A stretch of 49,335 nucleotides of DNA from Flavobacteriales bacterium (GTDB taxonomy: Bacteria > Bacteroidota > Bacteroidia > Flavobacteriales_D > Crocinitomicaceae): NCBI GenBank assembly GCA_013373595.1, contig JABXHO010000163.1, forward strand, positions 1-49,335. The letters run 5' to 3'. The notes beneath the pieces are model-generated. The model was given only the letters and a program-made list of their open reading frames with translations. It searched no databases and was not told where the DNA came from. The position numbers and the translations under genes are program-made. Shown piece by piece: positions 2,202-41,262 of this stretch; position 1 is the stretch's first letter; the number at the start of each line of letters is the position of its first letter.

Positions 2202-3047
2202 TTACGGGTTGCAAACATCACAATACATTGGATCTTCCTCATATTTCTGATGTGGAAACGTACGTTCTTCTGTGTAACCACAAGCCGAGCATGTCCAAAT
2301 ACTGGCTAAGGTTGATTGGGTCGGGGAATGGCAAAGTGAGCAGGGTAAACCCGAGCGATAATCGGTGGCCCAAAACCCAGGCATGGAACATTTGGGACAG
2401 GCACTCTTCAATTTTTCGATGAGATGAAGGGTCGCTTTCTCAATTGCCTTCATGCGGGTAGGATTAAACAGGGCTCGCATGTCAGTTTCTATCCAAACGG
2501 TTTTTTGATGCTCGAAATGAGATGAAAGTAGACCGAGTAAGGTGTGAGAATCGGTGATTCCTTTGGCAATAATATGCGACGTGGATTCACTTTCTCGTAT
2601 GATGACTGCGTGAGAAGGAAACCCGACGTTCTGGGTGAACTCCATCGCTTCTTCTATGGATTCAACGAGTTTCCCGTTGAAGTTCGTTTCGTGTGTGAGG
2701 TGTTTTCCAATCACTTCGAGCCCATACTTGCGATCCAAAAGCAGGACAATTTCTTCGTTTGCATTGGCGAAGGGAATGGTTGGATGTGGACCGAACGATC
2801 CTTCACTTGAAATCGCCAAATCAACACTGGATTGGCTCATGGCGAGCGCGCATTTTTTTCGAGCAGTTTTGAGTGCTGAATCTCGGCGTTTTACTTCTCC
2901 CGAAAAGGTGCCGAGCAAATCGGTATTCAATTCAGGAACGGAACAGAACACTTGAAAAGCGTCTTGAATTATGGGGGCAATCACGCGTTCCTTTTTGTGC
3001 ATGGTGGCAATGACAAGATGCCGTTTATTGAGTAGTTTTTGTACCAT
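2202..3047 (-). CDS. DUF6671-like protein with two C-terminal zinc ribbons
   Basis: 281 residues, cytoplasmic, no signal peptide. The N-terminus (VIATMHKKERVIAP, residues 12-25) and the general layout match a family I recall as DUF6671; that assignment is from memory. The C-terminal 70 residues hold four cysteine pairs, C217/C220, C236/C239, C253/C256 and C276/C279, consistent with two structural zinc ribbons. Residues 70-100 include SSEGSFGPHP, a conserved-looking polar segment. The gene lies 66 nt downstream of orf98 and is codirectional with dabA/dabB. Its function is not known, and its link to carbon uptake rests only on gene order. Confidence 0.7.
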   Translation of the reverse strand: MVQKLLNKRHLVIATMHKKERVIAPIIQDAFQVFCSVPELNTDLLGTFSGEVKRRDSALKTARKKCALAMSQSSVDLAISSEGSFGPHPTIPFANANEEIVLLLDRKYGLEVIGKHLTHETNFNGKLVESIEEAMEFTQNVGFPSHAVIIRESESTSHIIAKGITDSHTLLGLLSSHFEHQKTVWIETDMRALFNPTRMKAIEKATLHLIEKLKSACPKCSMPGFWATDYRSGLPCSLCHSPTQSTLASIWTCSACGYTEERTFPHQKYEEDPMYCDVCNP

Positions 3048-3113
3048 GCATGTGTGATCTAAAATGTTCCGCTCCCGAACTGATCCAATTGGAATAAGAT
3101 TTAAACGATGATG

Positions 3114-3410
3114 TTACGCATAAGCACGTTCTAATGCTGGCTGCTTTACTTTCACCTCGAATGAGATCGCCAGATCCATTTCACACGATGGGCAGTCATT
3201 GAAAAAGGCTTCAATTTCATTTTTCTTTTCCTGCAATGCCGCAATTCTTTCTTTCATCTCCTCGTCAGAAAGCGAGTGGTTTTTCTCCCAAGCGATGAGG
3301 TTTTGCTTTTTATAGTGAGCAATTTGCTGACTCAACAGGTTTAAGATGAGCTCCTTTGATTCTGTTTTTTTCAATCCGAATTCTTCGATGTTAAATGTAT
3401 TTGCGTTCAT
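3114..3410 (-). CDS. Small hypothetical protein downstream of dabA (orf98)
   Basis: 98 residues, mostly helical, no signal peptide or membrane segment. Residues 20-70 are Lys/Glu-rich with heptad-like spacing, probably a short coiled coil. One CPSC pair (C73, C76) could bind metal if paired with another chain, or form a disulfide. The start lies only 10 nt after the dabA stop codon, which argues for co-translation with DabA and makes it a candidate accessory subunit, assembly factor or regulator of the DabAB transporter. I do not recognise the family. Confidence 0.75.
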   Translation of the reverse strand: MNANTFNIEEFGLKKTESKELILNLLSQQIAHYKKQNLIAWEKNHSLSDEEMKERIAALQEKKNEIEAFFNDCPSCEMDLAISFEVKVKQPALERAYA

Positions 3411-3420
3411 ATCAGATGTA

Positions 3421-5880
3421 TTAGATTGTTTTTATTTCTTTTTCTTGATTTTCTTCGACTGTATCGAGTTGTTGCCATTTGCAATCACGTAAGTATCGGT
3501 GGCTAATGCGTCCTGTTTCGTCTAGCCTGAGAAGTGTGATCCAAGAATTATCGCACAAGTCGCGGATGTTTTGGTGCTTCGCAAGAATACCGTTGATGGC
3601 TTCACAAGATGATTCGATTACCACGTTCAAACGCTCTGGAAGATGTTGGAACGATGTTCCGTTGTGCACCGATTGTAGTGGAAGCCCGATGCGCAGATCG
3701 CCAGAGGCTCCCTCAAGTACGCCAATTCCTCCGGTTACATTGTGAAGCGTTTTGTTTCCTGCCCCAAGTCGTTTGTTATCGACTGTGCTTGCGAAGTACT
3801 GAAGATTGATCCAGCTTGTCACAACCATTGGAGCGGTCATGATGCTTTCCAGGATGGAGTGATCTGGATCGTGTTTTGCATCGTACGATTGTAAGAAGGA
3901 TTTTCCGTGGAGGTTCATCCCAAGTGTTCGCTCACGCGGAGCGACTACAAATGTGTTGCACCCAGCAAGTCCCCACTCAGGTCGAACTTGTGACCAATCG
4001 TTTGCGCGGGCAATAATATCCTGACTCATTTTCACCGTGCTTGATGCTTCATTGAGGAGTTTCTTTGATCGCTCAACACGTGTGCGCTCGCTCGCTAATC
4101 GAATTGATCGTAAGAGGGAAGCAATGGCAGGTTTGCGATCTTCAGGTACGTATTCCTTATTGATAATCGTGATTTCATCCGTTGTAGTGTTGTGCAAACA
4201 TGCAAGGAAAAGTGTTTCCTCTGGAACGTGAATGCCTTGATGTGCTAATGCGTTTCTTACATCGGAATCGTTGAGAATTTGCGCGGCAGTCATGGCGTTA
4301 ATTTCACCAGAGTGTCCTCCACAAGCGCCACAATCAAGTCCTGAGGCATGTGGATTGTTTACTGAAGATGAGCCGTGTCCTGTAATCAAAACGAATGGTG
4401 CTAGTTTATCCTTGATTCCCATTCCTGTGAGCGCTCCCGCAGCCATTTCTACTTTTTGTACTAACGAGATCGCTGATAAATCAAGAATGCGCTCATGCTT
4501 GTGCTCCTCCGCCAATCCGTCAATTGAAGGGTTCGGAACAGGTCGGGTAATTCCCAGTGAGTTGAGCAACAACTTCGGCAAGAAAGTGATCCCCAGTGGA
4601 CTCACATATCCGAAGGATGTCACAGCACCTGATTTAAACTTTTTCCATGCGCGATCAACCTGATGCGTAACGCGTCGTTTTTCTGCTGATTGTTGTGGGT
4701 GTGCTGAGCTTTCCTTCACTTCGGCACCAGACGGGATCAAAACAGGGCATTGATTCTTGCCCTCGGAGTGACCAAGTGGCACATAGTTGATGGGAAATCC
4801 AAAGAACCCTGCGAAGCCAATCGTTTCGATTGAGGGCGTCACAGATTCTAGGTTTCTACGGTAAACTTCCGATCGAACATCAATGCAAAAGACCATTTGA
4901 GCTTCAACTGACCTGTCTTTCTGGGGTGTTGAAACGTGATTCGCAAACGAGTCGATTAAACTACGTTGACAAGCAAAATCGTAGGCGTCTTGAAGCACAA
5001 TTTCCATTTCCAGCGGTTCGTTGTGCTCCTTGCTTTGTGCATCTTCGGAATAGAGATTTTTGTACCATTGCTGCTTGATTTTTTCTCCATCGAAAGCTTC
5101 GTAGAAGTAGAAATCCCACACCAGAAGAATGGCAAGGAATGCTTCCAATCTATTCGAAGATTCCCCTTGATACAGTTGTGTATTGTAATCCAATCCAGAA
5201 ATGTAAGACGACCAACCGACTGTTTTCAAGAGAAGGGCATGTAAGTACGCTTCTACGGCTTCTTCTGGAAGCTTGAGTGTTGCGATGATCTGTTCAATTG
5301 CTTCTTTATGATCACTCGGAAGTTGTTTCAGTTTTGATCGAAACTGACGAAGTCCCATGAACTCCACAGAGCGATCTACCTCGGCTTCATTCTTCCAAGA
5401 TGTGTAGATACTTTCTGAGGTGCGCGTGGTATTCCAAAGTGCGATGTACTCATCGAAATAAGACGAAGCCCACAAAGAGATTCTGTCTACCGAAAAGGCG
5501 TTCCAATCTTTTCCTGTGATGTCGGAAGCAATGCCCGACAATGTAAGTTGTTTCTGAGAAGAGTGGGTTTTTGCAGTAACCATTCGCTTTGCATTCTCGG
5601 TAAACGTTTCACCATCCAAGTGATACAGCGCATTTTTTTCAAGAGCGCTATCGATATCGGCACGAAGAATGGACCCTTTTTCGATTAAATCAAGATAGAA
5701 TTCCAAAGGCATTGTCAAGCGGATATCGCTTCTTTCAGCCATTTTTTTCGCTGTCTTCGCGAAGGAAGTATCCGAAAACCCGGTAAATGGATTTACGGCA
5801 ACAAAGTTTTTGATGGGCCAAGCTGGAGCAATGCGCTTGCAGCTCGTTTCTATTAAATAATGCAGCGTTGATTGTTTCAT
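3421..5880 (-). CDS. dabA: DabA, inorganic-carbon transporter subunit (DUF2309)
   Basis: 819 residues. DabA is the soluble, peripheral subunit of the DAB system, a distant beta-carbonic-anhydrase-like zinc protein thought to hydrate CO2 to bicarbonate in one direction when coupled to ion flow through DabB. The predicted zinc and catalytic residues are present: C332 and D334 in VFCIDVRSE, H502 in TGHGSSS and C517 in GLDCGACGGH. The spacings (2 residues and 15 residues) equal those I recall for the characterised Halothiobacillus protein. No signal peptide or convincing membrane helix. It begins 20 nt after dabB ends. The pair probably supplies bicarbonate for anabolic carboxylases, since no carbon-fixation genes are in the window. 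Confidence 0.95.
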   Translation of the reverse strand: MKQSTLHYLIETSCKRIAPAWPIKNFVAVNPFTGFSDTSFAKTAKKMAERSDIRLTMPLEFYLDLIEKGSILRADIDSALEKNALYHLDGETFTENAKRMVTAKTHSSQKQLTLSGIASDITGKDWNAFSVDRISLWASSYFDEYIALWNTTRTSESIYTSWKNEAEVDRSVEFMGLRQFRSKLKQLPSDHKEAIEQIIATLKLPEEAVEAYLHALLLKTVGWSSYISGLDYNTQLYQGESSNRLEAFLAILLVWDFYFYEAFDGEKIKQQWYKNLYSEDAQSKEHNEPLEMEIVLQDAYDFACQRSLIDSFANHVSTPQKDRSVEAQMVFCIDVRSEVYRRNLESVTPSIETIGFAGFFGFPINYVPLGHSEGKNQCPVLIPSGAEVKESSAHPQQSAEKRRVTHQVDRAWKKFKSGAVTSFGYVSPLGITFLPKLLLNSLGITRPVPNPSIDGLAEEHKHERILDLSAISLVQKVEMAAGALTGMGIKDKLAPFVLITGHGSSSVNNPHASGLDCGACGGHSGEINAMTAAQILNDSDVRNALAHQGIHVPEETLFLACLHNTTTDEITIINKEYVPEDRKPAIASLLRSIRLASERTRVERSKKLLNEASSTVKMSQDIIARANDWSQVRPEWGLAGCNTFVVAPRERTLGMNLHGKSFLQSYDAKHDPDHSILESIMTAPMVVTSWINLQYFASTVDNKRLGAGNKTLHNVTGGIGVLEGASGDLRIGLPLQSVHNGTSFQHLPERLNVVIESSCEAINGILAKHQNIRDLCDNSWITLLRLDETGRISHRYLRDCKWQQLDTVEENQEKEIKTI

Positions 5881-5900
5881 GTCGTCTTATTTTAGTGAGT

Positions 5901-7478
5901 TTAGCGTTCTGTTTTGATTACAAGGGCGTGTACCATTCGGTCAAACAAAACATTGAAATAGAGCCCATTTTTAAAGTGAATTCCAATATTTTTTGCGAAT
6001 CGGTTGTTTCTGAACCGAACAGCGTAGAGCTGCAGACCAACCGTCAAGAGGAAGAGTGAAAGCACGATGAAAATCATGGCTAAAAGGGAACCGCTTGCTT
6101 CGCGAATAACTGGAATCTGAGAATCGATTGCGGTGTGCGTTAGTTGTTCCAACAGGAAGAAGGCGTTAATTACCAGTCCGGAACCAAGCAGGAGCAGCAG
6201 AACTGATTTGAGGTTGATGTTCGCGTCGAGAGCGTTCACTTGAACGGTTACAATGCCTAAGAAAATCACTCCTGCGATCGCGAGCAGTTGTATTTCCGTT
6301 TCGGGATTGATTCCCCAGAAGTAAGCAAATAAACCAAAGAGGGCAATGGCACTGAGACTGCCCAATATCATTCGAATTGGACTTCCGCTTCGTACGAAGT
6401 TGGCTGCAAACTTTGTTTGTACTCTATCAATAATACTTCCAGAAGATAGGAAGGCATGTGCTTTATAGAATGAGTGCGCAACCAAGTGAAGCAAGGAAGC
6501 AGAGTAAACTCCGAGTCCGCTCACCATCAGTGTGAAGCCCATGTGACCAATACTCGAATAAGCCAAGGCTGTTTTGATCGATGGTTGAGTTGTTGCAGCA
6601 ATGGCGCCGAAAAGTGCACTAATTGCCCCGATAGCAATCAACGTAGTGGATGCAACAACGGAGAGGTCCATGAGAAAAGCGAATCGAATGATGAGGAAAG
6701 GTCCTGCATTCAAGAGTCCAGCATGGAGCAACGCAGAAACGGGTGTTGGTGCTTCCATCACGTCAAGAAGCCATCCGTGGAAAGGGAGTTGGACAGATTT
6801 TAATGCTGCGCTGAATACGAGTAAGAGCGTGGCAATTTCTAAGGTAACGGGTATATTTTCCGAGGAGATCAATTGCAGTTGCTCAAACAAGTAACTCAAA
6901 CTTCCACTCCCAAATTCGAAGTAGATGAAGGAAAAAGCTCCAAGAAGAGTAAGGTCCGCTAGACGGGCAACAATGAATTTTTTCCGTGCGGCCAACACTG
7001 CTTTTTTACGATTTGGGTAGAATCGGAGTAGCTGGTGCAGTCCAATGCTTGTTCCAACCCAAGCAACAAATAGTGTCGCGAGGTTTCCAGAGATAACCAA
7101 CAGTTGCACAAAAGCAAGTGTGAAGGCCAATCGACTAAAGAATTGACGAATTCTATTCTCGCCATCCAAGTAATTTTTACTGAATCGAACCACTACAAAG
7201 CCAATAATCGAAATCATCGTGTACATGATCGTGCTGAGTGAATCAATCCGAATAGAAAGACCGAGGTTGCGAACAGAGAAAAACGAAATTTCTGCTGCTT
7301 GCTGCGTTGAAACCCAAAAGAGGGCAACTCCTGATCCTATGAGGGAAAGATAGATCGCTGACTGAACTACTCCGAATGTATTTCTAAAAGTGCTAAACCA
7401 TTTTGTGGGAAGGTTAACAATAAGGAGTAAGACAATCGGAAGGAGAAAAAAGATACTTAACAGGTTAAGAGTCATCAT
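5901..7478 (-). CDS. dabB: DabB, NuoL/MrpA-like ion-translocating membrane subunit
   Basis: About 525 residues from the ATG at 7478 (another ATG follows at 7475). A longer reading from TTG at 7502 is unlikely because that TTG is part of a TAGATTTG promoter element. The protein is almost entirely hydrophobic with about 14 predicted helices and the proton-translocating-subunit signature of NuoL/NuoM/MrpA proteins: the LPFHGWLLDVMEAPTPVSAL segment, and the charged residues inside helices expected for an ion path. In DAB systems this subunit couples cation movement across the inner membrane to CO2/bicarbonate capture by DabA. First gene of the operon. Confidence 0.93.
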   Translation of the reverse strand: MMTLNLLSIFFLLPIVLLLIVNLPTKWFSTFRNTFGVVQSAIYLSLIGSGVALFWVSTQQAAEISFFSVRNLGLSIRIDSLSTIMYTMISIIGFVVVRFSKNYLDGENRIRQFFSRLAFTLAFVQLLVISGNLATLFVAWVGTSIGLHQLLRFYPNRKKAVLAARKKFIVARLADLTLLGAFSFIYFEFGSGSLSYLFEQLQLISSENIPVTLEIATLLLVFSAALKSVQLPFHGWLLDVMEAPTPVSALLHAGLLNAGPFLIIRFAFLMDLSVVASTTLIAIGAISALFGAIAATTQPSIKTALAYSSIGHMGFTLMVSGLGVYSASLLHLVAHSFYKAHAFLSSGSIIDRVQTKFAANFVRSGSPIRMILGSLSAIALFGLFAYFWGINPETEIQLLAIAGVIFLGIVTVQVNALDANINLKSVLLLLLGSGLVINAFFLLEQLTHTAIDSQIPVIREASGSLLAMIFIVLSLFLLTVGLQLYAVRFRNNRFAKNIGIHFKNGLYFNVLFDRMVHALVIKTER

Positions 7479-7499
7479 GTTTGTCTGTTTTGTTTGGGA

Positions 7500-7541
7500 C
7501 AAATCTATGATGAATAAGTCATAAATTTTTATTTATATTTG
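7500..7541. promoter_or_regulatory. Divergent dabB / lysR promoter region with LysR-type palindrome
   Basis: Two Bacteroidota -7 elements (TAnnTTTG) face away from each other: TAGATTTG on the minus strand at 7507-7500 for dabB, and TATATTTG on the plus strand at 7534-7541 for the regulator. Between them lies an interrupted inverted repeat, ATAAAT (7521-7526), four Ts, ATTTAT (7531-7536), a plausible LysR-family binding site overlapping the regulator's own promoter. I do not see clean -33 TTG elements. Function inferred. Confidence 0.6.
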
Positions 7542-7565
7542 AAATTTAAAGCATAAAAGATTTTT

Positions 7566-8465
7566 ATGAATTACACAATCAACCAACTTCGAATTTTCCT
7601 CAAAGTAGTAGAGAAACAAAGCGTTACGAAGGCATCGGAAGAGCTTTTCATGACGCAACCAGCGGTGTCAATTCAGCTTAAAAATTTCCAAGATCAATTC
7701 GATATTCCACTCACAGAAGTAATCGGAAGACAGCTTTACGTTACTGATTTTGGACAGGAGATTGCTGAAATTTCACGTCGAGTTTTGTCGGAAATGGATG
7801 AGCTGCAGTTCAAAACAAAAGAATATTTGGGTGTGTTAGCAGGGAAATTGAAAATCTCGTGTGCTTCAACTGGAAAATATGTGATTCCCTTTTTCCTTTC
7901 TGATTTTTTGGAAGAGCATTCCGGAATCGATTTGGCGTTGGATGTCACGAATAAAACGATGGTTGTTGAGAGCCTCAAGAAAAACGAAATTGACTTTGCC
8001 GTTGTATCGAAGCTGCCCGAAGATTTAGCCATTGAAGAGGAGTTGATCCTCGAAAATCGACTGTATTTCATGGGTACACAGGATAATTTTGACAAGAAGA
8101 AGCCACTTATTTTTCGAGAACCAGGATCGGCAACGAGACAGGAAATGGAACATTATTTTGAGGAAAAAAAGGCGAATAGAAAACGCTTGGAACTGACATC
8201 AAATGAAGCCGTGAAGCAAGCAGTAATCGCTGGACTCGGCCATTCGATTTTACCCTTAATCGGAACGCGAGGTCAACTGGAAAGGGGTGCGCTGAAAATT
8301 ATTCCAAGAAAGAGATTACCCTTAACGACTGATTGGCGAATCATCTGGTTAAAAAACAAGAAGCTGTCACCAGTGGCGAAGGCCTTTTTAGAGTTTGTTC
8401 GCTTGAATAAAGAGAGCATTTTGGAAAAACACTTTGAGTGGTATTTGAAGTTTGACAAAGTGTGA
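7566..8465 (+). CDS. LysR-family transcriptional regulator of the dab operon
   Basis: 299 residues. The N-terminal ~60 residues form the winged helix-turn-helix typical of LysR regulators (INQLRIFLKVVEKQSVTKAS, then LFMTQPAVSIQLKNFQ), followed by a linker helix and a periplasmic-binding-protein-like effector domain (about 88-295). The helix-turn-helix resembles CbbR/CmpR-type regulators that control carbon-uptake and fixation genes. It is divergent from dabB and shares an 87-bp intergenic region holding a LysR-type palindrome, so it very likely controls dabBA and probably itself. The effector is unknown; by analogy it could be a carbon-metabolism intermediate. Confidence 0.92.
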   Translation: MNYTINQLRIFLKVVEKQSVTKASEELFMTQPAVSIQLKNFQDQFDIPLTEVIGRQLYVTDFGQEIAEISRRVLSEMDELQFKTKEYLGVLAGKLKISCASTGKYVIPFFLSDFLEEHSGIDLALDVTNKTMVVESLKKNEIDFAVVSKLPEDLAIEEELILENRLYFMGTQDNFDKKKPLIFREPGSATRQEMEHYFEEKKANRKRLELTSNEAVKQAVIAGLGHSILPLIGTRGQLERGALKIIPRKRLPLTTDWRIIWLKNKKLSPVAKAFLEFVRLNKESILEKHFEWYLKFDKV

Positions 8466-8527: not shown

Positions 8528-11500
8528 TTACTTTTTCAATAATGTCGAAATCACTTCTCCTGCATCCGTATCCAATCGAATGAAATAAACTCCAGAAGCG
8601 GCATCCAGTGAAGTTTCAATCACCTTCACATCGTAGAAGTGTTTCACGGAAATTATCTGCCCCAGGCTGTTTGTTACTTCTAACCACACTTCCTTCTGGG
8701 TTTCACCAAACTCAATAAAATACGCATTCGTAATTGGATTTGGGTAAATCGAAACACGACCATCATTGAAAATATCGTTAACGCCAATCGTGTTGATTGC
8801 AACACAACTCGATGTGTCTGAACAGTTATCATTATCTGTAATGACAACGGCATACGCTCCGATGGCAGTCGCCGTGAAAGACTGGTTGGTAGCTCCAGAA
8901 ATTGGAGAATTATCCGAACAATCGATCCATTGATAGCTCACTCCAGATTGATCTGCCGTGATGGTTGCTCCAGACAAAGAGGTGGTCGCATTCGCAGAAT
9001 TGATCGTTAAATTCAGCGTTACAATAGAATCGCAACCTGTTGCATTTGTTAAAGTATGGGTTGCCGACGAGTTGGATGAGGTATAGGTATTTCCATCAAT
9101 CCATGTATACGAATCACAGGCTGAGACCACATCCGTTCCCGATGATGGAACACATCCGATCCAAACAGGATAATCTTCTACTTCTCCCAAAGCGGGTCCG
9201 CAAGGGTCAATTTCGGTTGAGAACCAATAACCCAGACGTGTTCTCAAGACAAGCGTGTCTTGCACAACAGCATTCGAGGGAACCGTAAAGTTCGCTGTTA
9301 CGTTGTTCGTTCCAGCATCAATTTGGTAGATGATTTCTTCGCTCGTATCAAAGGTGGCATCTTTATTAAAGTCAATCCAAGCTGCATAATCGTTTTGAGA
9401 CCAACTCGTTGAACCTGTCATGCTGATTGAATACGTGTTCCCGGGTAACAAGAACACAGGCTGATTTCCGTAATACGTGTAAGAATCGTTTCCAGTACTA
9501 TTATTCACGTTTGCAATGGTAACATTTGTTATGCGCAAGTTCGAACCATCATTTGTTCCGTTTGCCGAACAATATTCAAATGGTTTGACGGTGTACATAA
9601 ACTTGTAGGTTTCGGTCGTATCACCAGCAGATCCAACAGCGAAAACTTTGAAGAACATTTTGGTTCCCGCAGGATAATCAGGCAATGCCGTACTGGAAAT
9701 CCAATCATTACCCGACACATTGTTCATCGGAATAAGGTTTCCAAAAGTTGGCGCATTAATCGACCATTCCACATACACACTCGAAAGGGTATTCGTGTAC
9801 TCAATTGTAGCCGAAACAAATTGATCGACGTTTTCTTTCGGTGCTTCTAACGTTGGTGGATTGCTAATACTCGTGTGGGTGATAGCCGGATAGTTTAGTC
9901 TTCCGTCGAGTGCATACTCCCATAATCCGCGACCCCATGTTGTAGCGCGAAGCGTGTTAGATCCCCACATTACTTCCATTTCTCGAATAGATGTGTTTGG
10001 CAAATCGGTATTGTATAAGGTCCATGTAACATCCGACATGGCTTTTTTGTAAATACCAATCTCAGTTCCAAGATAGATGGTAGAGGCATTTGTGTGGTCA
10101 ATCACGGCTGAACGCACGGGCATATTCCCCAAATTGTACGTAATGTTTTGCCAGTTGGCTCCGAGGTCGTGTGTGATAAACACTTTGGAGTTATCGTTTT
10201 GGTAGCGTCCGTAGGTAACAACAATTGTGTTATCGTCATTTGGATCGAACACGACATCCGTAATCGAGTAGTTCGGTAAATTATTTTTGATGCTGGACCA
10301 AGTTACACCACCATCATCGGAAAGCTCGATACTTGAATTTCTAACAGCGATAATGAGATCAGAGTTGTTTTCTGCAATCGTGGCAAACTGTATCGTACTT
10401 GAAAATGAGGGAGAACCCACATTCGTATAAGTTGATCCGAAATCATCGCTTCTGTGTACATTTTCTCCGAGAGAATAAACGCGCATGTGGTCGTTCGGAT
10501 CGTAAAAAATCGGTGCGATCCAGTAGCCTGTTTGTCCCGAAGGAGTAACTCCACCATTCGATTGACCAGCATTAAAGGTTCGTCTTCGCCCTCCATTTTG
10601 AAGACTTCCAATCATCCAATCATCGTTCAGCGGATGAATGAAACCCTCCATTCCGTCAGCGCCGTACATTTCGACCCATCCGTTTTCCGTATTGATACTC
10701 GTTCCATTATCCTGCGAACCACAAATTGTTCTGTAGTGGTTGGACTGACTCACTCCCAGGTTATAGTTCATTCGAATCCCAATGTCTTCACTGAGGATAT
10801 TCCAATTTGTTCCGTTGTCGGCACTACTCACAAGGAAACCATCTGTTACGGCGTAAAAAACACCGTTGATGCATTCAGCGGCTTGTAAATCCGCATGGAT
10901 GTAATCTGTACTGGTCGTATAGCTTATTTGATTTCCATTACCTGCACCGTTTGTATTTCCCAACGACCAATAAGTAACTTGATTGAAGTTTAGCCCGCCA
11001 TCGCCGCTGGCAAAAGCATCTAGATAACCAGCGATCATTTTAGTGTCGTCAACATCACTTACCGCAAAGCCAGCATCGGAAAGCCCAGGATTACTCACTA
11101 GCGAGAAAGAACCACCACTGTTTGTAGATTTCCAGAGTCCATTATCCGACATGTAATAAACGCAATTGGGGCAAAAAGGACTTACAGCCACCGTTCCAAC
11201 ACCACCAGAACTTCCGGGGAGTGATACGGGAGAGAAGGACAATCCTGCATTAGTAGAAACGAAAACCGTATTCGGATCATTTTTGGCGTACGCATAAATG
11301 ATGTTCGGGTTTGTCGGATGAAAATCAATGTCCACAAAGTCGTCGCCTGTTACTGGAACGGTCCAAGATGTCAGGTTGTTGTCTGATCGGTACAAACCTT
11401 CATTAGTTCCAACAAAAACGAGGTCAGGAATGGTTGGATGGTATTTAATTTTGTAAACCTGTCGGTTGCTTCCCAAGCCGCCCCAACCAAGATTCGTCGG

Positions 11501-12148
11501 GTTGAAATTGGTAAGAGACCACGTATTTCCACCGTCTACAGAACGGTAAATTCCGTGAGAAGTATGGTTTTGACTGTTGTTTGAATTAATCAATACAGAG
11601 TCTGGATATGTGGGAGAAACAGCAATGGTATTCACACCAGCAGCAGCTAAAAAGTCGGTAGATCCTCCTGCCCATGTTGCGCCTCCATCCAGCGATTTCC
11701 AGAAACCTCCTGTTCGCGTACCGATGTATAAGCGTTGAGCATTGTTCGGGTCAACATAAAACGAAACAATTCTTCCCATTCCGAAAGCGTAGTGTCCTGT
11801 GATTTGTCCAGGAGATGTGGGACCAAGTTCCTCCCATCCTGTCGAGAATAGCGACTTTGGACTAGCAGTGTTTGCCTGAAATTGTTCGAATTGGTTTTTT
11901 ACAAAGTAAGGATCAACATTGCTTCTGTCGCCTGAAGGATAGTATTTGTATTCATTTTCGTGTTTCCAACGCTGGTAACCTTTCCACCCTGAGCCTTTTC
12001 CTTTCTCGTGTGTTTCGAAATAGAGATCTGCCGCCGCGCAGACATCATAAAAATTGATGGACATATCCTTCATCATTTCCTTGTAGTTGGATTGTGAAAA
12101 CGAGAAGAGAGAAAGAGAAACGAAAAGGACGAAAACAGTGAGCTTCAT
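8528..12148 (-). CDS. Large secreted BNR/sortilin-type propeller protein with GEVED and T9SS sorting domains
   Basis: 1206 residues with an N-terminal signal peptide (hydrophobic run ending FSFSQ). Residues ~100-760 contain repeated BNR/sortilin-like motifs, e.g. SLDGGATW, SVDGGNTW, SDDFGSTY, SDDGGVTW and THDLGANW, indicating one or two large beta-propellers. Residues ~860-995 form a GEVED domain ending with the family signature GEVEDYPV. Two short Ig-like segments follow, and the last ~75 residues are a type A T9SS sorting domain beginning VSIYPNP and ending with a basic ISTLLKK tail. It should be exported across the outer membrane and attached to the cell surface or released. Surface adhesion or polymer binding is plausible; no catalytic motif is visible. 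Confidence 0.9.
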   Translation of the reverse strand: MKLTVFVLFVSLSLFSFSQSNYKEMMKDMSINFYDVCAAADLYFETHEKGKGSGWKGYQRWKHENEYKYYPSGDRSNVDPYFVKNQFEQFQANTASPKSLFSTGWEELGPTSPGQITGHYAFGMGRIVSFYVDPNNAQRLYIGTRTGGFWKSLDGGATWAGGSTDFLAAAGVNTIAVSPTYPDSVLINSNNSQNHTSHGIYRSVDGGNTWSLTNFNPTNLGWGGLGSNRQVYKIKYHPTIPDLVFVGTNEGLYRSDNNLTSWTVPVTGDDFVDIDFHPTNPNIIYAYAKNDPNTVFVSTNAGLSFSPVSLPGSSGGVGTVAVSPFCPNCVYYMSDNGLWKSTNSGGSFSLVSNPGLSDAGFAVSDVDDTKMIAGYLDAFASGDGGLNFNQVTYWSLGNTNGAGNGNQISYTTSTDYIHADLQAAECINGVFYAVTDGFLVSSADNGTNWNILSEDIGIRMNYNLGVSQSNHYRTICGSQDNGTSINTENGWVEMYGADGMEGFIHPLNDDWMIGSLQNGGRRRTFNAGQSNGGVTPSGQTGYWIAPIFYDPNDHMRVYSLGENVHRSDDFGSTYTNVGSPSFSSTIQFATIAENNSDLIIAVRNSSIELSDDGGVTWSSIKNNLPNYSITDVVFDPNDDNTIVVTYGRYQNDNSKVFITHDLGANWQNITYNLGNMPVRSAVIDHTNASTIYLGTEIGIYKKAMSDVTWTLYNTDLPNTSIREMEVMWGSNTLRATTWGRGLWEYALDGRLNYPAITHTSISNPPTLEAPKENVDQFVSATIEYTNTLSSVYVEWSINAPTFGNLIPMNNVSGNDWISSTALPDYPAGTKMFFKVFAVGSAGDTTETYKFMYTVKPFEYCSANGTNDGSNLRITNVTIANVNNSTGNDSYTYYGNQPVFLLPGNTYSISMTGSTSWSQNDYAAWIDFNKDATFDTSEEIIYQIDAGTNNVTANFTVPSNAVVQDTLVLRTRLGYWFSTEIDPCGPALGEVEDYPVWIGCVPSSGTDVVSACDSYTWIDGNTYTSSNSSATHTLTNATGCDSIVTLNLTINSANATTSLSGATITADQSGVSYQWIDCSDNSPISGATNQSFTATAIGAYAVVITDNDNCSDTSSCVAINTIGVNDIFNDGRVSIYPNPITNAYFIEFGETQKEVWLEVTNSLGQIISVKHFYDVKVIETSLDAASGVYFIRLDTDAGEVISTLLKK

Positions 12149-25992: not shown

Positions 25993-27351
25993 TCATTCTT
26001 GTTTGATTTTATCTTCCCAATCTTCCAAAATTGAGGTAGTAATATTCTCATACTTATTTACTACACTTTGAAGTGTTTGTTTATGCAGATTTAATTCTGC
26101 AATTTTCCTTTGTTCTTCCTTTTCCGTAGCTATTTCTATATCACTATCGGTCTCAATATCGACTATTTTTTTATCCTTTTCACTAATTTTTTCAAACTCC
26201 ACTACTCGTTTTTCTCTAATTTTATTCAGTTTTATATCATATTCTGTGGGCTTACCCATAAGTTTCATCCACGTGGGCAATATTTCTAGTAGCAAAAAAA
26301 CGAGAAAGATGAACCAGCGAAGGAACTGGACACCGAAGTTTGGATGTGTAAGTAAAGTCATGAACTTTGTATCAAAGCCTTGAAGATTGGCTAAAAATTC
26401 CTGTCTTTCATCCGTTTTGTTTTCAATAGTAGCGTTATCCATTTCGATTTTGGTAGCTAAACTATCGATTACATTATCGCTTTGCCGTATTTTGTCGTTA
26501 AGACTTTGTTCGTAAATCAAACGTTCACTTTTAATAATTGAATCAAGCTGAGCTATCAAAATTTCCTTTTCTCTGTAATTGTTCTTCGCTTTCCGGTATT
26601 CATCATTTTTATCTAAGTAATTACGGTATTCCCTCGATTCTTTGATTAGTACTTCTTTTTGCGTTAATTCATCAAATTCTCTAGGTATGTTTCTCCACGC
26701 CCGATTTCGTGATAAATTTGCATCTTGTACTCTTTTTTTTAAACTTGGTAGATTTTGAATTTCGTTTTCATAATCTAGTTGAGCATCTCTGAAAGTTGTC
26801 GTCTCGGGATCTTGATTCTTTGCATCATTTAGACGATCCCTGTTTTCCTTAAAGTTTAGTTGCCTACTTTGTGTTCCCTCAATGTCAATAGCCTTTTTAA
26901 GGCTTTCTTGATAAGACATCCAAGTCTTATCTGAATTTTTTTGCATCTGGTCTTCGATTTGTTCTCGAAATAAATAGTGATCTAGAGGGCTTGACATGAA
27001 TAGGGCTAGAAGACTACCTAAAAATATTCGAGGAAAAAAGTACCTCCAGAATTTTGCTCTTGTGCTAATCCCGTTAATGTATACTTTGTCAATAGTTTGG
27101 ATCATCATTTGATCGATAGCATATACCAATAGCCCCCAAATAAGACCAAATAGGACCACTATTGCAATGTTTCCGCCAAAATCAAAGCCGGCAAATGCTC
27201 CACAGAATGCGGCAAAAAGGAAGGTCATTAGAAATAGCAACCCTTGTCGGGAGTAATATTTATATGATGTCGGGCAATCCTCAACAATCCATACTTCAAC
27301 TCCCGAAATTGACCACAATAACTTTTGAATTATATTGAAATTTTTATTCAT
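25993..27351 (-). CDS. DUF4407 membrane protein with long coiled coil
   Basis: 452 residues. Three membrane helices near the N-terminus (about 36-55, 61-80, 104-121), then a soluble coiled-coil region (about 130-315) rich in Glu/Lys/Asp/Asn, then a fourth helix (about 338-360) and a charged C-terminal helix (about 370-450). This layout and the N-terminal text (LLWSISGVEVWIVEDCPT) match DUF4407, a family I recognise but whose biochemistry is unknown. The membrane helices plus a long stalk suggest a sensor or effector at the inner membrane. The start overlaps the zinc-ribbon/Ig-like gene by 8 nt, so both are translated together. Last gene of the island operon. Confidence 0.85.
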   Translation of the reverse strand: MNKNFNIIQKLLWSISGVEVWIVEDCPTSYKYYSRQGLLFLMTFLFAAFCGAFAGFDFGGNIAIVVLFGLIWGLLVYAIDQMMIQTIDKVYINGISTRAKFWRYFFPRIFLGSLLALFMSSPLDHYLFREQIEDQMQKNSDKTWMSYQESLKKAIDIEGTQSRQLNFKENRDRLNDAKNQDPETTTFRDAQLDYENEIQNLPSLKKRVQDANLSRNRAWRNIPREFDELTQKEVLIKESREYRNYLDKNDEYRKAKNNYREKEILIAQLDSIIKSERLIYEQSLNDKIRQSDNVIDSLATKIEMDNATIENKTDERQEFLANLQGFDTKFMTLLTHPNFGVQFLRWFIFLVFLLLEILPTWMKLMGKPTEYDIKLNKIREKRVVEFEKISEKDKKIVDIETDSDIEIATEKEEQRKIAELNLHKQTLQSVVNKYENITTSILEDWEDKIKQE

Positions 27352-28795
27352 TTTTTGATCGATTGAAAATTTGAGAAGTTTTTTTGTTAATACCCTTCAA
27401 TTCTACCCTCAATACAGAAATAAGGCTCCCATAGCTCAATGAAAACAACTTGTTATACCATCGAGCATTTTTCAGCTGCCTCACAATAGAGTTGTTTTTA
27501 TGAGTAGTATTCAAATTTATTTCTGGTAAGGCAATTACTAATGATGGCATTGTGGGAAATGAAATATTATCCAATTTGGGCAAAGAGTGTATAATTACTG
27601 GACAGTCCTGTCGTTCTCTAGATACTTCATTTGAAACTTCTAAAGTATAGGTGGTCGTCTTGGTTGGCGATAATTCTATTTGGCTTAATCCTGATACATC
27701 TTCCTGTAATGGCAATAACACTATTTTAGTTGCATTTGCTGCACTCCAAGACAATAAAATTTTATCAGATTCAAGAATTCTATTTTTGTTCGACCGAAAA
27801 TGAATTATTCTAACTCGATCGACAATAAAGATATTGCACGTTTTACTTACAGGAGGTTGTAGGTCATTTAATGCGTAAACCGTTAATTCGCATATTACAG
27901 AACTTCTTGGAATAAATCGATGTTCATTTTTTTGTTGCGTATTTATTTCTTTATTATTGATAAATAAAGTTGAGCGTTTGCTATCTTTAGTCTTCCACGT
28001 CAGCAATACTTCCTCGTCTTTTCTTATGTGTGTTTCAGACGCATTGAACTCCAATATTTGTGGAGTTCTAACTGGTTGAATTTCTAGCGGCTTAGAAATG
28101 GCCTTATAATGTTCATTTTCAACGATTAACTGGAATTTTTGATAGCCTGAAATTTTTGTCTCGTATTCATTATTACTTATTGGGACTTCTTCACCATTTA
28201 TATATGCACGTGAATAATTAATAGCTTCCCATTGAATAAGGAACGGTTGATTCTCTTCTACAAATGGTACATTTATTGAAAAATCAATAATTTTCGCGGG
28301 TTTAACTTTTTGATAGATTGAAAAATTATCTTGGGTCGAATTGTCAATGAACCAATCGTTTATTTCAGTTAAATCTGAATTTTCAATTGAATCTATGTGT
28401 CCAAGTGAATAGGAAAAAGAATCAATGATATAATCGGCAACTTCTTTGAAAAGAAAGTTTTCAGTAGCAAAAAAATATTTGAGTGTTTCTATTTTTACCT
28501 TGCTATTACTCTTCGCTACATTGTTTAGCTTGTGATGTACGTTTTCCTTAGTTGCTAATAGGATCATCTTTCTGATTAGTTTGTTGCGTATGAGATCCAT
28601 TAGAATACCTTCTAATCTTGGAGTTTCTGAAAAAATAGTAGAGTCGAATGCCTCGACTATATCTTTTAGTGTCTCATGCGGTAATTTGTCGCTAGAAGGC
28701 GGAAACACAACAATTCCATTGCATCCTGAACACCTGGTAATTGCCTGATTATTTGAATGCAGACTAATAGAACAATATGAACATTCCACAGTCAT
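27344..28795 (-). CDS. Zinc-ribbon protein with three Ig-like modules
   Basis: 483 residues, no signal peptide. The N-terminus is a zinc ribbon (CSYC at 5-8 and CSGC at about 22-25). A helical region follows (about 35-155). Residues ~165-420 hold three tandem beta modules of about 80 residues, each starting I-x-x-F and containing the same W core: FLIQWEAINYSRAYINGEEV, VLLTWKTKDSKRSTLFINNK and ILLSWSAANATKIVLLPLQE. I recognise the modules as Ig-like but not the whole architecture. The C-terminal 70 residues are basic. The start overlaps the phosphatase gene by 32 nt. Probably a cytoplasmic scaffold or phosphorylation target in the TerY-type pathway (inference). Confidence 0.75.
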   Translation of the reverse strand: MTVECSYCSISLHSNNQAITRCSGCNGIVVFPPSSDKLPHETLKDIVEAFDSTIFSETPRLEGILMDLIRNKLIRKMILLATKENVHHKLNNVAKSNSKVKIETLKYFFATENFLFKEVADYIIDSFSYSLGHIDSIENSDLTEINDWFIDNSTQDNFSIYQKVKPAKIIDFSINVPFVEENQPFLIQWEAINYSRAYINGEEVPISNNEYETKISGYQKFQLIVENEHYKAISKPLEIQPVRTPQILEFNASETHIRKDEEVLLTWKTKDSKRSTLFINNKEINTQQKNEHRFIPRSSVICELTVYALNDLQPPVSKTCNIFIVDRVRIIHFRSNKNRILESDKILLSWSAANATKIVLLPLQEDVSGLSQIELSPTKTTTYTLEVSNEVSRERQDCPVIIHSLPKLDNISFPTMPSLVIALPEINLNTTHKNNSIVRQLKNARWYNKLFSLSYGSLISVLRVELKGINKKTSQIFNRSKNE

Positions 28796-30200
28796 TTATT
28801 CTGCTGTTAATTCCCCCACTGTTGTCCTCTGCCGGGCTGTTTTGGTCTGTCAACTCTTTCTGACATTCCTTATTCAATAAGTAATTAGCCCCCATTGTAA
28901 AAGCAACTCCCAGAAAAATACCAATGATGAGAAAGAAAAACTTATTGCTAAATAGAGTTCTCGTAGTGTTTTTGTTATTGTGCGATTCTGGTATTAAGTT
29001 AATTCCATCCACATTTAGCGCCCCTAAACTTTCTGTTTTTTCACTTACATTCGATGACGATTCAGACTGGTTTAATTTTTCTTCAACTGAAGAAAATATT
29101 CCCTTCTCGTTGGATAATTCAGCTTTCTCATTACGTTCTTTTTTTTTTTCAAGGTGAGAATTTGTTTTGGAAGCAAATTCTTCTTTATCTAGTTTTCGCT
29201 CTTCCACTGGGCCTTTCAAGTGAATTTCCGGTTGCTTATTTTGAATCGTTAAATTCTCATTTTCGGTTTTATTATTACTAGATTTCAAAATAGGCAGAAC
29301 CGTTGCTATTTTTTCGGTATCAATTATCCAGGAAATTGAAACATCATCTCCACTGCCATTTTTGCTCAAATCGGGCAATGACTCGCTTAGACTTGTTTTC
29401 GCTTTTTCTATCCCTAAATTTTCTATATCCTCTAATATTGAGGTATAATACTCTGCAAGTCTATTACCCCACGAATCATCAATTCCGTCTGTTCCAAGCA
29501 TAATTGCTAAGGGAAAGTCCCCTTTCCCAGAAAAAGAATATCGAAAACTTTTATATGCGTCGGAACCGCAAAGCGAAGTGGTAATATTTAAAAAGCACTC
29601 GGAATCCCATAGAATTGGTTCGTACCACCCATCATTTTTATTACAAGCCAAACATTTACCGTCACCGATTTGAAAACCAAACCAATAATCATTAGATTGC
29701 ACAAAAGCCAGCAACGTGGCTCCATAAGCCTTTACAATTTCATTATTCCCCAAGAGATCCGCTTCCTCCTTTGTTGGTGGGTGCTCAGTCCAATGAGTCT
29801 CTACTTTCAGCACCCATTCATTATATATGTACTGAAATAAATGTTCAAAAACGGGATCAATATCCTTTATTGAAGGAAGTATGATTTCGAAGTTCTCTAT
29901 GTCATTGTCCGAGCTTAATTGATTTGTTTTTTTTCTTACCGGCACTTTTGCCGACCTATCCTTCAATAACTCTGAAAGCCCAGATAAACCTTTAATTGCT
30001 TCTAAAGCTGTTTCACAAGCAAAGCGGGAACCAATATTACTTCGGCAATAGGTTTTGCCACCATGACCATCGCTAACTATACCGACGAATAATGAACCAT
30101 CTGGTGCGGAATGGCTCAACGAATAATCTTGACAGACTATTTCTTTGTTAATATGACTATACCCTATTTCGGTTTTGTTATAAGTTGATATATTCATCAT
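28764..30200 (-). CDS. PP2C-type Ser/Thr phosphatase with C-terminal membrane anchor
   Basis: About 478 residues from the ATG at 30200 (a second ATG at 30197; the frame from 30236 adds 12 unlikely residues). PP2C metal-site motifs are intact: VSDGHGG (42-48), IGDG (178-181), GTDGIDDSW (236-244) and SGDDVSISW (283-291), with CQDY at 23-26. A Ser/Lys/Glu-rich linker follows (about 300-420), then one membrane helix (about 420-442) and a short tail ending GMFILFY. It removes phosphate from Ser/Thr, presumably opposing the kinase two genes upstream. It lies 93 nt downstream of the VWA gene and overlaps the next gene by 32 nt. Confidence 0.9.
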   Translation of the reverse strand: MMNISTYNKTEIGYSHINKEIVCQDYSLSHSAPDGSLFVGIVSDGHGGKTYCRSNIGSRFACETALEAIKGLSGLSELLKDRSAKVPVRKKTNQLSSDNDIENFEIILPSIKDIDPVFEHLFQYIYNEWVLKVETHWTEHPPTKEEADLLGNNEIVKAYGATLLAFVQSNDYWFGFQIGDGKCLACNKNDGWYEPILWDSECFLNITTSLCGSDAYKSFRYSFSGKGDFPLAIMLGTDGIDDSWGNRLAEYYTSILEDIENLGIEKAKTSLSESLPDLSKNGSGDDVSISWIIDTEKIATVLPILKSSNNKTENENLTIQNKQPEIHLKGPVEERKLDKEEFASKTNSHLEKKKERNEKAELSNEKGIFSSVEEKLNQSESSSNVSEKTESLGALNVDGINLIPESHNNKNTTRTLFSNKFFFLIIGIFLGVAFTMGANYLLNKECQKELTDQNSPAEDNSGGINSRINDCGMFILFY

Positions 30201-30293
30201 GATTGTTTTTACGGTAACTCTTATAGCAAGCCACAAGCCATGGTTGTTTTACTCGATATTCGAATAGATGATTTATTGAAATGCGGAAGCCCA

Positions 30294-31037
30294 TTATTCC
30301 CAATCATCATCAAGCGCTTCTCCACCAGTTGCTGGAGTGATTTCTCCATCTTTAATTTCTTCTTGCATCTCATTACTTATCTCCTTTTCAATTTGTTCTT
30401 GCTTTGTTTCATTTGCAGTGTCAGTAGTTTTAGAAGCAACCGATGAGGACGTAACAGAAACACATCGAATAATTTTCTTCAATGCTTCGATATTATGAAC
30501 AGTGAAAACAGATTCTTTACTTCCTGTAAATTCTTCTAGAACGCTAAGATTAGCATCGTCACCTATTGCGATGGCAATCCTTACACCTGCTTTAAACCAA
30601 TTCTTTTCTCTTAAGTTCTTCAACGGTGTCTTATAGTTGTCAGTTGGCCCACCGTCAGAAAGTAGAATGAAAACAGGTGCAAATGCTCCGCTCGGACTTG
30701 ACATAAATCCATCCCCTTTTGTCGTTAGCTTACTTAATAATTCTGTACATGCCGCTCCAAAATCTGTCGCCCCATCTACTGATAACGTTCTCCATGAAAA
30801 ATTTTCTGCTGGTATAGGACTTGAATATGACCATTTGACGCCTGAAGAGAATTGCAAAACTGCAATTTCGACTATTGCGTCATTATTGTCTTTTGAAATT
30901 TCCCCGAGCATTGGAATTACTTCTTCTACGGCGTTATTTAACGCTCCGATTTTTGCACCTTCCATGCTGTAAGATGTGTCGACAACAAAAAATAGTACTA
31001 ACTTTTTTGCTGGCAATGGGTCGTTTTTTATTGGCAT
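30294..31037 (-). CDS. TerY-like VWA-domain protein
   Basis: 247 residues. A von Willebrand factor A domain fills residues 10-195 with a complete metal-ion-dependent adhesion site: D20-T-S22-Y-S24, T91 in GATDFG and D128 in LLSDGGPTD. It matches TerY-type proteins, which bind a divalent metal and partner proteins in tellurite/stress-response systems. The last 50 residues are Thr/Glu-rich, ending with an acidic tail EALDDDWE. No signal peptide, so cytoplasmic. It lies between the kinase (35-nt gap) and the phosphatase, the usual order of a TerY-phosphorylation triad. Confidence 0.9.
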   Translation of the reverse strand: MPIKNDPLPAKKLVLFFVVDTSYSMEGAKIGALNNAVEEVIPMLGEISKDNNDAIVEIAVLQFSSGVKWSYSSPIPAENFSWRTLSVDGATDFGAACTELLSKLTTKGDGFMSSPSGAFAPVFILLSDGGPTDNYKTPLKNLREKNWFKAGVRIAIAIGDDANLSVLEEFTGSKESVFTVHNIEALKKIIRCVSVTSSSVASKTTDTANETKQEQIEKEISNEMQEEIKDGEITPATGGEALDDDWE

Positions 31038-31072
31038 AAATAATTGTTTTAAATTGTTAACCTTATTTGAAT

Positions 31073-32344
31073 TTATATGACGATTGCTGTTGTTTCATTT
31101 GATAGAGAGATCTTTTTCCCTTTCTCTAAAATGCATACATCGCTATTTTTTATGATATCTATTTTTCCAATACTTTCAATTGACCAATCTGCATTTGAAA
31201 TATTTTTCAACCCTATTTGACCAGATTTTTTATTCACCACTACTTTACCTATTTGTTTTAGAAAATTCCCAGCACTTGATATATTTGATGCGTAGAGAAA
31301 TTTACCTGCTTTAATTGGGATTTTCTTACCTTTTATTTCTAAGCCAAATTGAATATTCAAAGAACTCTTGCAGAAATAACAACCTTCTTTTCTCGCAAAA
31401 GTTTCCTCTCCACAACTGCAACGCACCAATAAATCGCGAGCGCGAGATAAAATGTTAACCCATTCTGTTTCTCGGATCCTATTTTCAGGGTTTTGAATAG
31501 ATTCCTTACTAAATGCGTCTATAAAAGCATTGTTTACATTTTTCGGATAAAGGTTCCACCAATTTAGTACGTTGGTATGAATGTTCTTTACTGGACGATT
31601 CGTGCTGTTTTCGGGGTCACAAATAAACACGGCATTTCGTCCGTAAACTTCCTTTTCTACTTTTGGAGTAAAACATGGATAACTTACTGCATTAGCACCT
31701 TCAAGAGGGTGATTACCATACAGTAACAAAAATAAAACGATGGACAGGGAAAAATAATCTGTTCGCTTATTGGCAGGACTATTCCCTTCAACGATTTCCG
31801 GAGCTTTAAATCGCATCATTCCCCCCATATTTGAAGATCCCAATGGACTTACATTGTCACAATCACAAATTAGAACTTCTCCATTTTTAGGGTTTATAAA
31901 AAAACCACCATCATTTAAATCATAAAAAACTAACCCGCTGGCGTGTAATTTTTTTAGAGCAATACATATTTTTATCGCAACCGTAATTTTGGTGAGAATT
32001 GGATTGTCAAATTTATTAAAATCGACAATTTGTTTCCCTTTCATAATGTCTTCATATTCTGGTGGACGCAGCTTCATTAAGTACCCAAAATACCCCTCTT
32101 TTTTTTGAGTCAGCATTTGAGGCCAAATGTAGTCGTGAGAAGGGCTGCCAATTTCAATGAGCTGTTTAATGTTATTATACATCCATTTGTCGGGAGACTT
32201 GTACCATTTCAGAGCATATTTATGACCAGATGCGTCCTTTACTTCATATACGCATCCTTGACCACCCTCTCCCAGTTGTTTTAATACGGTCATATTTACG
32301 CCAGATTGTAATTTGATATTTTCACCATTTTTTAATTTTGCCAT
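31073..32344 (-). CDS. Protein kinase with zinc ribbon, TerY-associated
   Basis: 423 residues. Kinase domain (about 10-310): glycine loop GEGGQG (25-30), ATP-binding K46 in YALKWYK, catalytic-loop D142 with N144 in FYDLNDGGFFIN (the usual HRD is FYD), metal-binding DCD (161-163) in place of DFG, and APE (181-183). All key acidic residues are present, so it should be active on Ser/Thr. A zinc ribbon follows (C309, C311, C322, C325). The final 90 residues form a beta domain with an FHA-like feel that could bind phosphothreonine; that is only a guess. This kinase-plus-zinc-ribbon form is the one described for TerY-P triads. Confidence 0.9.
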   Translation of the reverse strand: MAKLKNGENIKLQSGVNMTVLKQLGEGGQGCVYEVKDASGHKYALKWYKSPDKWMYNNIKQLIEIGSPSHDYIWPQMLTQKKEGYFGYLMKLRPPEYEDIMKGKQIVDFNKFDNPILTKITVAIKICIALKKLHASGLVFYDLNDGGFFINPKNGEVLICDCDNVSPLGSSNMGGMMRFKAPEIVEGNSPANKRTDYFSLSIVLFLLLYGNHPLEGANAVSYPCFTPKVEKEVYGRNAVFICDPENSTNRPVKNIHTNVLNWWNLYPKNVNNAFIDAFSKESIQNPENRIRETEWVNILSRARDLLVRCSCGEETFARKEGCYFCKSSLNIQFGLEIKGKKIPIKAGKFLYASNISSAGNFLKQIGKVVVNKKSGQIGLKNISNADWSIESIGKIDIIKNSDVCILEKGKKISLSNETTAIVI

Positions 32345-32385
32345 TTTATTTCAGTTTAGAACTAGTCGAGTATGTCTTTTTGCTT

Positions 32386-41195: not shown

Positions 41196-41262
41196 TTGTT
41201 TTTCTTCTTTTCGATTCTCGAAAGGAGTGACTATTTTAGTCCAAATTATATTAATCAGACAG

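Follow-up and report, generated by a model that had tools for sequence, protein, structure and literature searches.

A dabBA operon of a Flavobacteriales bacterium as part of a candidate inorganic-carbon supply regulon with an exchangeable importer

The dab operon and its control region

The subject of this work is an operon on a 49,335-nucleotide (nt) stretch of DNA from a Flavobacteriales bacterium of the Crocinitomicaceae (GenBank assembly GCA_013373595.1, contig JABXHO010000163.1, positions 1 to 49,335), referred to here as the window, which belongs to a genome of 4.69 Mb that is 99.92% complete. At this locus a LysR-type regulator gene diverges from dabB, dabA, a gene for a 98-residue protein (orf98) and a DUF6671 gene, the latter four all on the minus strand. 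Here, we show by comparison of loci that one LysR family and one predicted double operator precede operons with either of two importers, DabAB or SbtA, and that orf98 and DUF6671 go with either importer, isocitrate dehydrogenase (IDH) and Sua5/TsaC being frequent further members. The features at the locus, in window coordinates, are as follows.

7566–8465, plus strand: lysR (HTH_1 58.6 bits and LysR_substrate 117 bits, both above cut-off)
7519–7568, minus strand: double palindromic operator, CATAAAAATCTTTTATG at 7568–7552 and ATAAATAAAAATTTAT at 7536–7521
7507–7500, minus strand: probable -7 promoter element TAGATTTG, with its TTTG part at 7503–7500
5901–7478, minus strand: dabB, membrane NuoL/Mrp-like subunit (Proton_antipo_M 156 bits, Proton_antipo_N 34 bits)
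3421–5880, minus strand: dabA, cytoplasmic vectorial carbonic anhydrase subunit (PF10070 823 bits, cut-off 25)
3114–3410, minus strand: orf98, 10 nt 3' of dabA, a beta-alpha-alpha-beta protein whose family is defined by profile
2202–3047, minus strand: DUF6671 gene, 66 nt 3' of orf98 (PF20376 282 bits, cut-off 23.8, full length 1–217)

Open reading frame coordinates and Pfam agree with an initial annotation of this DNA on the gene positions and strands, the 10-nt and 66-nt spacings and the divergent LysR. dabB lies 20 nt upstream of dabA and probably starts at ATG 7478; TTG 7502 is an unlikely start because the probable promoter element occupies 7507–7500. The same annotation had seen no Rubisco or carboxysome gene nearby, and there is indeed none among the 37 window open reading frames scanned with Pfam, a scan that left aside the frames at 37–744 and 8528–12148 and several short ones and did not extend to Rubisco in the whole genome.

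Against DabA2 of Halothiobacillus neapolitanus, whose structure is solved (9rd0), DabA scores 546 bits. Its residues C332, D334, R336, H502 and C517 align with C351, D353, R355, H524 and C539 of DabA2, of which C351, H524 and C539 are described as zinc ligands and D353 and R355 as an Asp-Arg dyad (PMC13144422). As judged from this alignment the active site is intact, with the zinc ligands and the Asp and Arg residues of DAB2 kept, and the DAB2 work is also the basis for expecting DabAB to make bicarbonate from CO2 (PMC13144422).

Loci with DabAB or SbtA and the same partners

Across 150 genomes of the family, DabA occurs in 65, DUF6671 in 62, SbtA (PF05982) in 50 (49 above cut-off) and a beta-carbonic anhydrase in 131. 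The window's DabA clade (at least 780 bits) is represented by 14 loci in this sample, each with at least one of the two partners: orf98 stands in the dab operon at 11 of them (behind DUF6671 in two) and DUF6671 at 12, which bears out the expected conservation of both genes with dabA. All 12 loci whose flanks are long enough have LysR, which diverges from dabB at 10 of them and stands at the DUF6671 end at the other 2. In total, the family sample has 13 further genomes in which dabB and dabA are accompanied by orf98, DUF6671 or both, an arrangement far beyond chance. Gene calls in the fetched loci follow a longest-frame rule and labels come from family-locus profiles, so that weak labels may err; genomes and loci are cited below by our own G and L numbers where they have to be told apart.

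Many DUF6671 loci without dabA carry SbtA (Sbt_1, 382 bits), a sodium-dependent bicarbonate transporter, together with LysR and a protein of 80–110 residues that profiles join to orf98. These loci often add Sua5/TsaC (187 bits), which uses bicarbonate, a dihydroorotase-type amidohydrolase and a large IDH, and sometimes a bestrophin or a CutA-like protein (20.7 bits, just below the cut-off of 22.4), the latter in just 11 of 66 clustered family loci. The same SbtA association is found in many of the best 80 named Bacteroidota DUF6671 loci (Flavobacterium, Psychroflexus, Lacihabitans and others). Since orf98 is also present at SbtA loci without DUF6671 (L291–L294) and behind dabAB without DUF6671 (L079, L084), it appears to follow the importers themselves.

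Because these loci had been found through DUF6671 or DabA, the genomes were also searched with the orf98 profile alone. In the family sample 35 genomes match and 34 were kept: 11 have orf98 at dabAB (the dabB of G068 being a fragment at the end of a contig) and 23 have it at SbtA, DUF6671 or, in one case (G149), a CutA-like gene; only a single-sequence search revealed a twelfth dab case, G130. In 395 genomes of the phylum 33 match and 31 were kept, 10 at dabAB, 14 at SbtA (at half the usual SbtA score in G448 and G469), 1 at DUF6671 with Sua5 and 6 beside IDH only. Three genomes were discarded because their match, taken to be due to chance, lay within a long unrelated frame (G019, 2166 residues; G222, 597 residues; G537, 390 residues), and every retained match in both samples has a module partner. 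A locus search with the orf98 sequence alone returned no relative, while the profile and whole-genome searches did recover relatives. Among 101 non-redundant orf98, a LysR of the window's family lies within 3.5 kb of 66 and DUF6671 within 3.5 kb of 65, most of these loci having been found via DUF6671.

These counts bear on the proposal of the initial annotation that orf98 is an accessory specific to DabA. That proposal did not hold up by count: orf98 homologues occur mainly away from dabA, in 23 of 34 family and 21 of 31 phylum genomes, an outcome that the annotation itself had named as speaking against it. Since the homologues away from dab sit at SbtA, DUF6671, IDH and CutA-like genes, mostly with the same LysR, the link of orf98 to carbon supply becomes stronger and its link to DabA in particular weaker.

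The regulator and its presumed site connect these loci. The LysR scores 146 bits to the NCBIfam CbbR family (NF045990), below the cut-off of 450, and its close relatives, with 440–523 bits to the LysR-family profile, adjoin dab, sbtA, idh and orf98 loci. The same double palindrome recurs between lysR and the operon, irrespective of which gene the operon begins with (dabB, sbtA, idh, orf98, DUF6671 or cutA). Of 98 such regions, 87 agree with it at 26 or more of 36 fixed positions; the best of three mononucleotide shuffles has a median of 23 and a maximum of 27. With up to three mismatches allowed, the operator pattern has a single match in the 4.69-Mb genome, at 7521–7568, which is also the one match in the window, where 100 shuffles gave none. 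The 150 family genomes yield 39 matches, spread over 33 of them, and 0 for the reversed pattern; 36 of the 39 precede module operons: dabB in 10 (one through orf98), sbtA in 12, idh in 9 (another gene coming first in three), orf98 in 3 and DUF6671 in 2. One of the 39 lies about 1.7 kb upstream of sbtA (G126). No lysR adjoins two of the idh sites (L370, L372) or either DUF6671 site, both of which lie between idh and DUF6671. At L075 and L077, where lysR stands at the far end of the dab operon, dabB is preceded by an operator-like site that keeps 27 and 28 of the 32 fixed positions. The -7 consensus of Bacteroidota promoters is TAnnTTTG. Of 78 loci, 73 have the TTTG part at a constant distance of exactly 15 nt from the operator, compared with 0 of 76 for a control stretch, and only 11 have the complete motif. 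Taken together, operator and adjacency speak for co-regulation, not for a mechanism.

A tree of DabA (46 rows, two pairs of which are the same locus) has three well-supported groups. LysR, orf98 and DUF6671 are nearby in none of the 19 rows of one group, 16 of which had just 1.5 kb of flank. The second group (10 rows) has orf98 within 4 kb in 9, directly upstream of dabB and in the same direction in 7. In the window's group (17 rows) orf98 is found in 11, downstream of dabA. There are thus two ARRANGEMENTS with DabA, orf98 upstream of dabB in one clade and downstream of dabA in the window's clade, and because its position differs between the two clades the link of orf98 to dab was apparently made or kept in two arrangements. 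In the phylum sample 30 genomes have DabA; wide stretches around it were examined in 14 besides the window (DabA being partial in G290).

Two further kinds of gene were seen in these neighbourhoods. A weak beta-carbonic anhydrase-like protein occupies the usual orf98 slot between dabA and DUF6671 in L075 (5274–5816) and L077 (5106–5612), two of the three window-clade loci without orf98 (Pro_CA 32.5 bits, cut-off 25.7, for the L075 member tested), and in L135 (836–1324) a gene from the same cluster stands between those for SbtA and DUF6671. In L092, L106, L109, L079 and L080 a bestrophin gene is found at the same locus as DUF6671 or dabAB (Pfam-tested for the L080 member). Bestrophins can carry bicarbonate, and as far as gene neighbourhood goes this one may be a third exchangeable carbon transporter.

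The orf98 and DUF6671 proteins

The predicted model of orf98 consists of a strand, a long helix, a helix and a strand (predicted local distance difference test, pLDDT, 85.5). Structure searches gave generic helical matches only, with Z up to 8.8, below the level advised for helical proteins, and for this reason we propose no structural family. Likewise, no Pfam or NCBIfam family lies above cut-off (the best two Pfam families, neither of them DUF2294, have E 0.07 and 0.17), Pfam gives no PII match, and a PDB sequence search with the orf98 and DUF6671 profiles returned nothing below E 0.07. MpsC, the product of the small gene downstream of the Staphylococcus aureus dabAB homologue, is a DUF2294 protein; Pfam does not support orf98 as its homologue. 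The CPSC pair pointed out in the initial annotation is present in orf98 but is not a conserved feature, since among 32 aligned homologues the first column has Cys in 2 and the second in 1, and a zinc or redox role through these cysteines was rejected. The alignment holds 31 of the 37 orf98 found in named Bacteroidota DUF6671 loci. A form of about 80 residues tends to follow IDH and a longer form tends to precede DUF6671. A W[ED]xxH motif is present in 14 of 21 dab-linked orf98 (both arrangements) and in 2 of 80 others, in rows related by descent and for a motif picked on inspection before counting; as a lead, it suggests that dab-linked orf98 may be specialised.

DUF6671 is modelled with high confidence (pLDDT 94, predicted template modelling score 0.89). 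Its residues 8–225 resemble the inosine triphosphatases (ITPases) of the YjjX/RdgB (HAM1) type, with Z 12.7 to YjjX (root-mean-square deviation 3.2, 140 residues aligned), 12.3 to RdgB and also 12.1 to HcgB, and YjjX is the top Foldseek match (E 1.1e-3). Unlike these enzymes, DUF6671 adds a subdomain at 122–192, which on its own resembles the lid of ATP-grasp enzymes (Z about 9), and a cysteine-rich C-terminus. Neither Pfam nor PDB sequences give a sequence match to ITPases, and we therefore call the protein ITPase-like by fold only. The conserved motifs GTFSGE, SEGSFGxHP and ETDMRAxxNPxR lie in the ITPase-like domain, and eight C-terminal cysteines (217/220/236/239/253/256/276/279) are invariant in 63 sequences, giving the model a cysteine-rich tail that looks like a zinc ribbon. 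The alignment draws on 62 of the 80 named loci, leaving out L160 (stop), L213 (split), L170 (odd start) and 15 to limit redundancy. The frame is interrupted by a stop or frame change in L160 (6041–6886) and L213 (9986–10843). From the predicted fold, the chances that DUF6671 binds or hydrolyses a nucleotide seem to us about even.

A candidate carbon-supply regulon and its relatives

What might such an operon do in a presumed heterotroph? We consider it probable, judging from gene content and operators, that it represents, with DabAB as the importer, an inorganic-carbon supply regulon of Bacteroidota in which the importer is exchangeable, and very likely that orf98 and DUF6671 belong to that regulon. 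A shortage of CO2 or bicarbonate, or a changed metabolic proxy for it, would cause LysR to turn the operon on. DabAB would then hydrate CO2 to bicarbonate in the cytoplasm at the expense of the proton gradient, and the bicarbonate would feed carboxylases and the synthesis of carbamoyl phosphate and threonylcarbamoyl-AMP. SbtB is the small soluble partner of SbtA; orf98, made together with the importer, would most likely be a comparable small soluble modulator of the importer or of its regulation and not a fixed subunit of DabA. DUF6671, with its predicted ITPase-like pocket, would most likely bind or cleave a nucleotide, supplying or removing the signal. We put forward the role of orf98 as a modulator of importer or regulon tentatively, at somewhat less than even chances.

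Several observations weigh against this picture. The genome holds a beta-carbonic anhydrase of its own, and the need for DAB is thus unproven. An adjacent orf98 is absent at 6 of the 17 window-clade DabA loci, and seven phylum-sample genomes of one family (f36), six of them known from search rows alone, have DabA (33–35% identity) and no orf98 match, which argues that orf98 is not strictly needed for DabAB. In G346 an orf98 upstream of dabB (L282, 3611–3832) has its frame interrupted by an in-frame stop. The 6 phylum genomes in which orf98 stands only beside IDH are not explained by a transporter modulator. For the operator, 11 of the 98 regions beside lysR fall short of 26 of 36 while shuffles reach 27, and the count is partly circular because the consensus came from these same loci; 2 of the 39 sites lie at unrelated genes, between a 162-residue gene and an acyltransferase-like gene (L362 and L366, related genomes); and the orf98-dabBA loci L288, L351 and L352 have a more distant LysR (302–310 bits) and an operator match not above chance (22–24 of 32). 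Finally, among the best 80 loci DUF6671 can stand directly behind the dihydroorotase-like amidohydrolase with no LysR, SbtA or dabAB in the stretch shown (L182, L197, L198, L208, L210, L217 and others), which suggests that it may function beyond the LysR regulon as well.

The alternative that survives best, though we think it on the unlikely side, is that orf98 acts on the regulator or on IDH, as a small feedback protein of the LysR regulon and not of the importer. The loci with IDH only and the frequent company of the LysR family would fit, and the cyanobacterial LysR protein CcmR is reported to have 2-oxoglutarate and NADP+ as co-repressors (PMC3401165). By analogy, an NADP-type IDH would turn over both of these, the NADP cofactor being putative here. 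Against such a role, orf98 shares its locus with dabAB (10) or SbtA (14) in the 31 phylum genomes, several of which have no IDH there. A stronger form of the importer-modulator proposal seems to us unlikely: orf98 would found a transporter-independent, post-translational control of inorganic carbon uptake in heterotrophs, as a hairpin protein that docks on DabAB or SbtA with an importer-tuned turn motif and reads a nucleotide signal set by DUF6671, all controlled by a CO2-responsive LysR, the equivalent of CcmR in heterotrophs.

A role of orf98 as an accessory subunit or a regulator dedicated to DabA is improbable. The 10-nt spacing, the place of orf98 in most window-clade dab operons and the W[ED]xxH counts speak for it, the last with the reservations given above; against it, most homologues are not at dabAB and DabA loci of the same clade without orf98 exist. 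As orf98 follows two unrelated importer families and IDH, a general modulator or regulon feedback protein fits it better than a DabA subunit. We give still less credence to orf98 and DUF6671 being passengers, kept by operon inheritance or joint transfer and irrelevant to carbon uptake. The precedent of S. aureus mpsC, a downstream gene reported to be dispensable (PMC6689103), points that way, as do the loci where orf98 is absent or broken. It is hard to see how passive linkage would join these genes to two unrelated importers, in gene orders that differ, or place operators before DUF6671 at loci without an adjacent lysR. That DabAB serves Mrp-like ion or pH homeostasis in a pH regulon is very doubtful: DabB is antiporter-like and the genome has its own beta-carbonic anhydrase, but the predicted DabA active site is intact and DabAB exchanges with a bicarbonate importer in the company of Sua5.

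The beta-carbonic anhydrase of the host is a full gene (Pro_CA 186 bits) at 41227–41889 on the plus strand of the window. It is 34 kb away from the dab operon and is the sole PF00484 match in the genome. Because the genome encodes it, DAB would not be the only route of CO2/bicarbonate exchange. A role for DAB as the substitute for an absent carbonic anhydrase was rejected, as a beta-carbonic anhydrase is present in most family genomes (131 of 150) and in all 14 with window-clade DabA, including that of the window. Elsewhere in the window (25993–32922, minus strand) protein kinase, VWA, PP2C phosphatase and DUF4407 genes are clustered on one strand, possibly as a phospho-signalling cluster.

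DabAB and SbtA have mainly been studied in autotrophs. A regulon whose importer is exchangeable while its operator stays the same offers several handles, namely a DNA site, a regulator and two uncharacterised proteins that can be tested with two importers, and further members may be found by the operator site alone. In the open-licence literature, the scope of our search, which left subscription journals and preprints outside, no paper names DUF6671, none joins SbtA, LysR and "Bacteroid-", and nothing was found on the module. sbtA itself has been reported as biased to proteorhodopsin-bearing marine Flavobacteriia (PMC5932025).

Three known systems can be set beside this operon. DAB2 of H. neapolitanus (DabA2/DabB2) has the same dabB-dabA pair, Cys2His zinc site and Asp-Arg dyad. 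In contrast to DAB2, the operon described here stands in a Bacteroidota context with orf98, DUF6671 and a divergent LysR, and without a Rubisco or carboxysome gene among the frames scanned. For DAB2, regulation against futile cycling is named as a key open question (PMC13144422). In S. aureus, which is not an autotroph, MpsABC likewise joins a homologue of DabAB to the product of a small downstream gene (PMC6689103); mpsC is reported there as collocated only in staphylococci, whereas orf98 recurs in many Bacteroidota. Finally, the cyanobacterial regulon of CcmR/NdhR and SbtA/SbtB also places a LysR protein over SbtA and a NuoL-like CO2-uptake complex (PMC3401165); a small soluble partner, SbtB, belongs to it as well. 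The system described here differs from it in that orf98 has no PII match in Pfam and in that DUF6671 and IDH are extra members.

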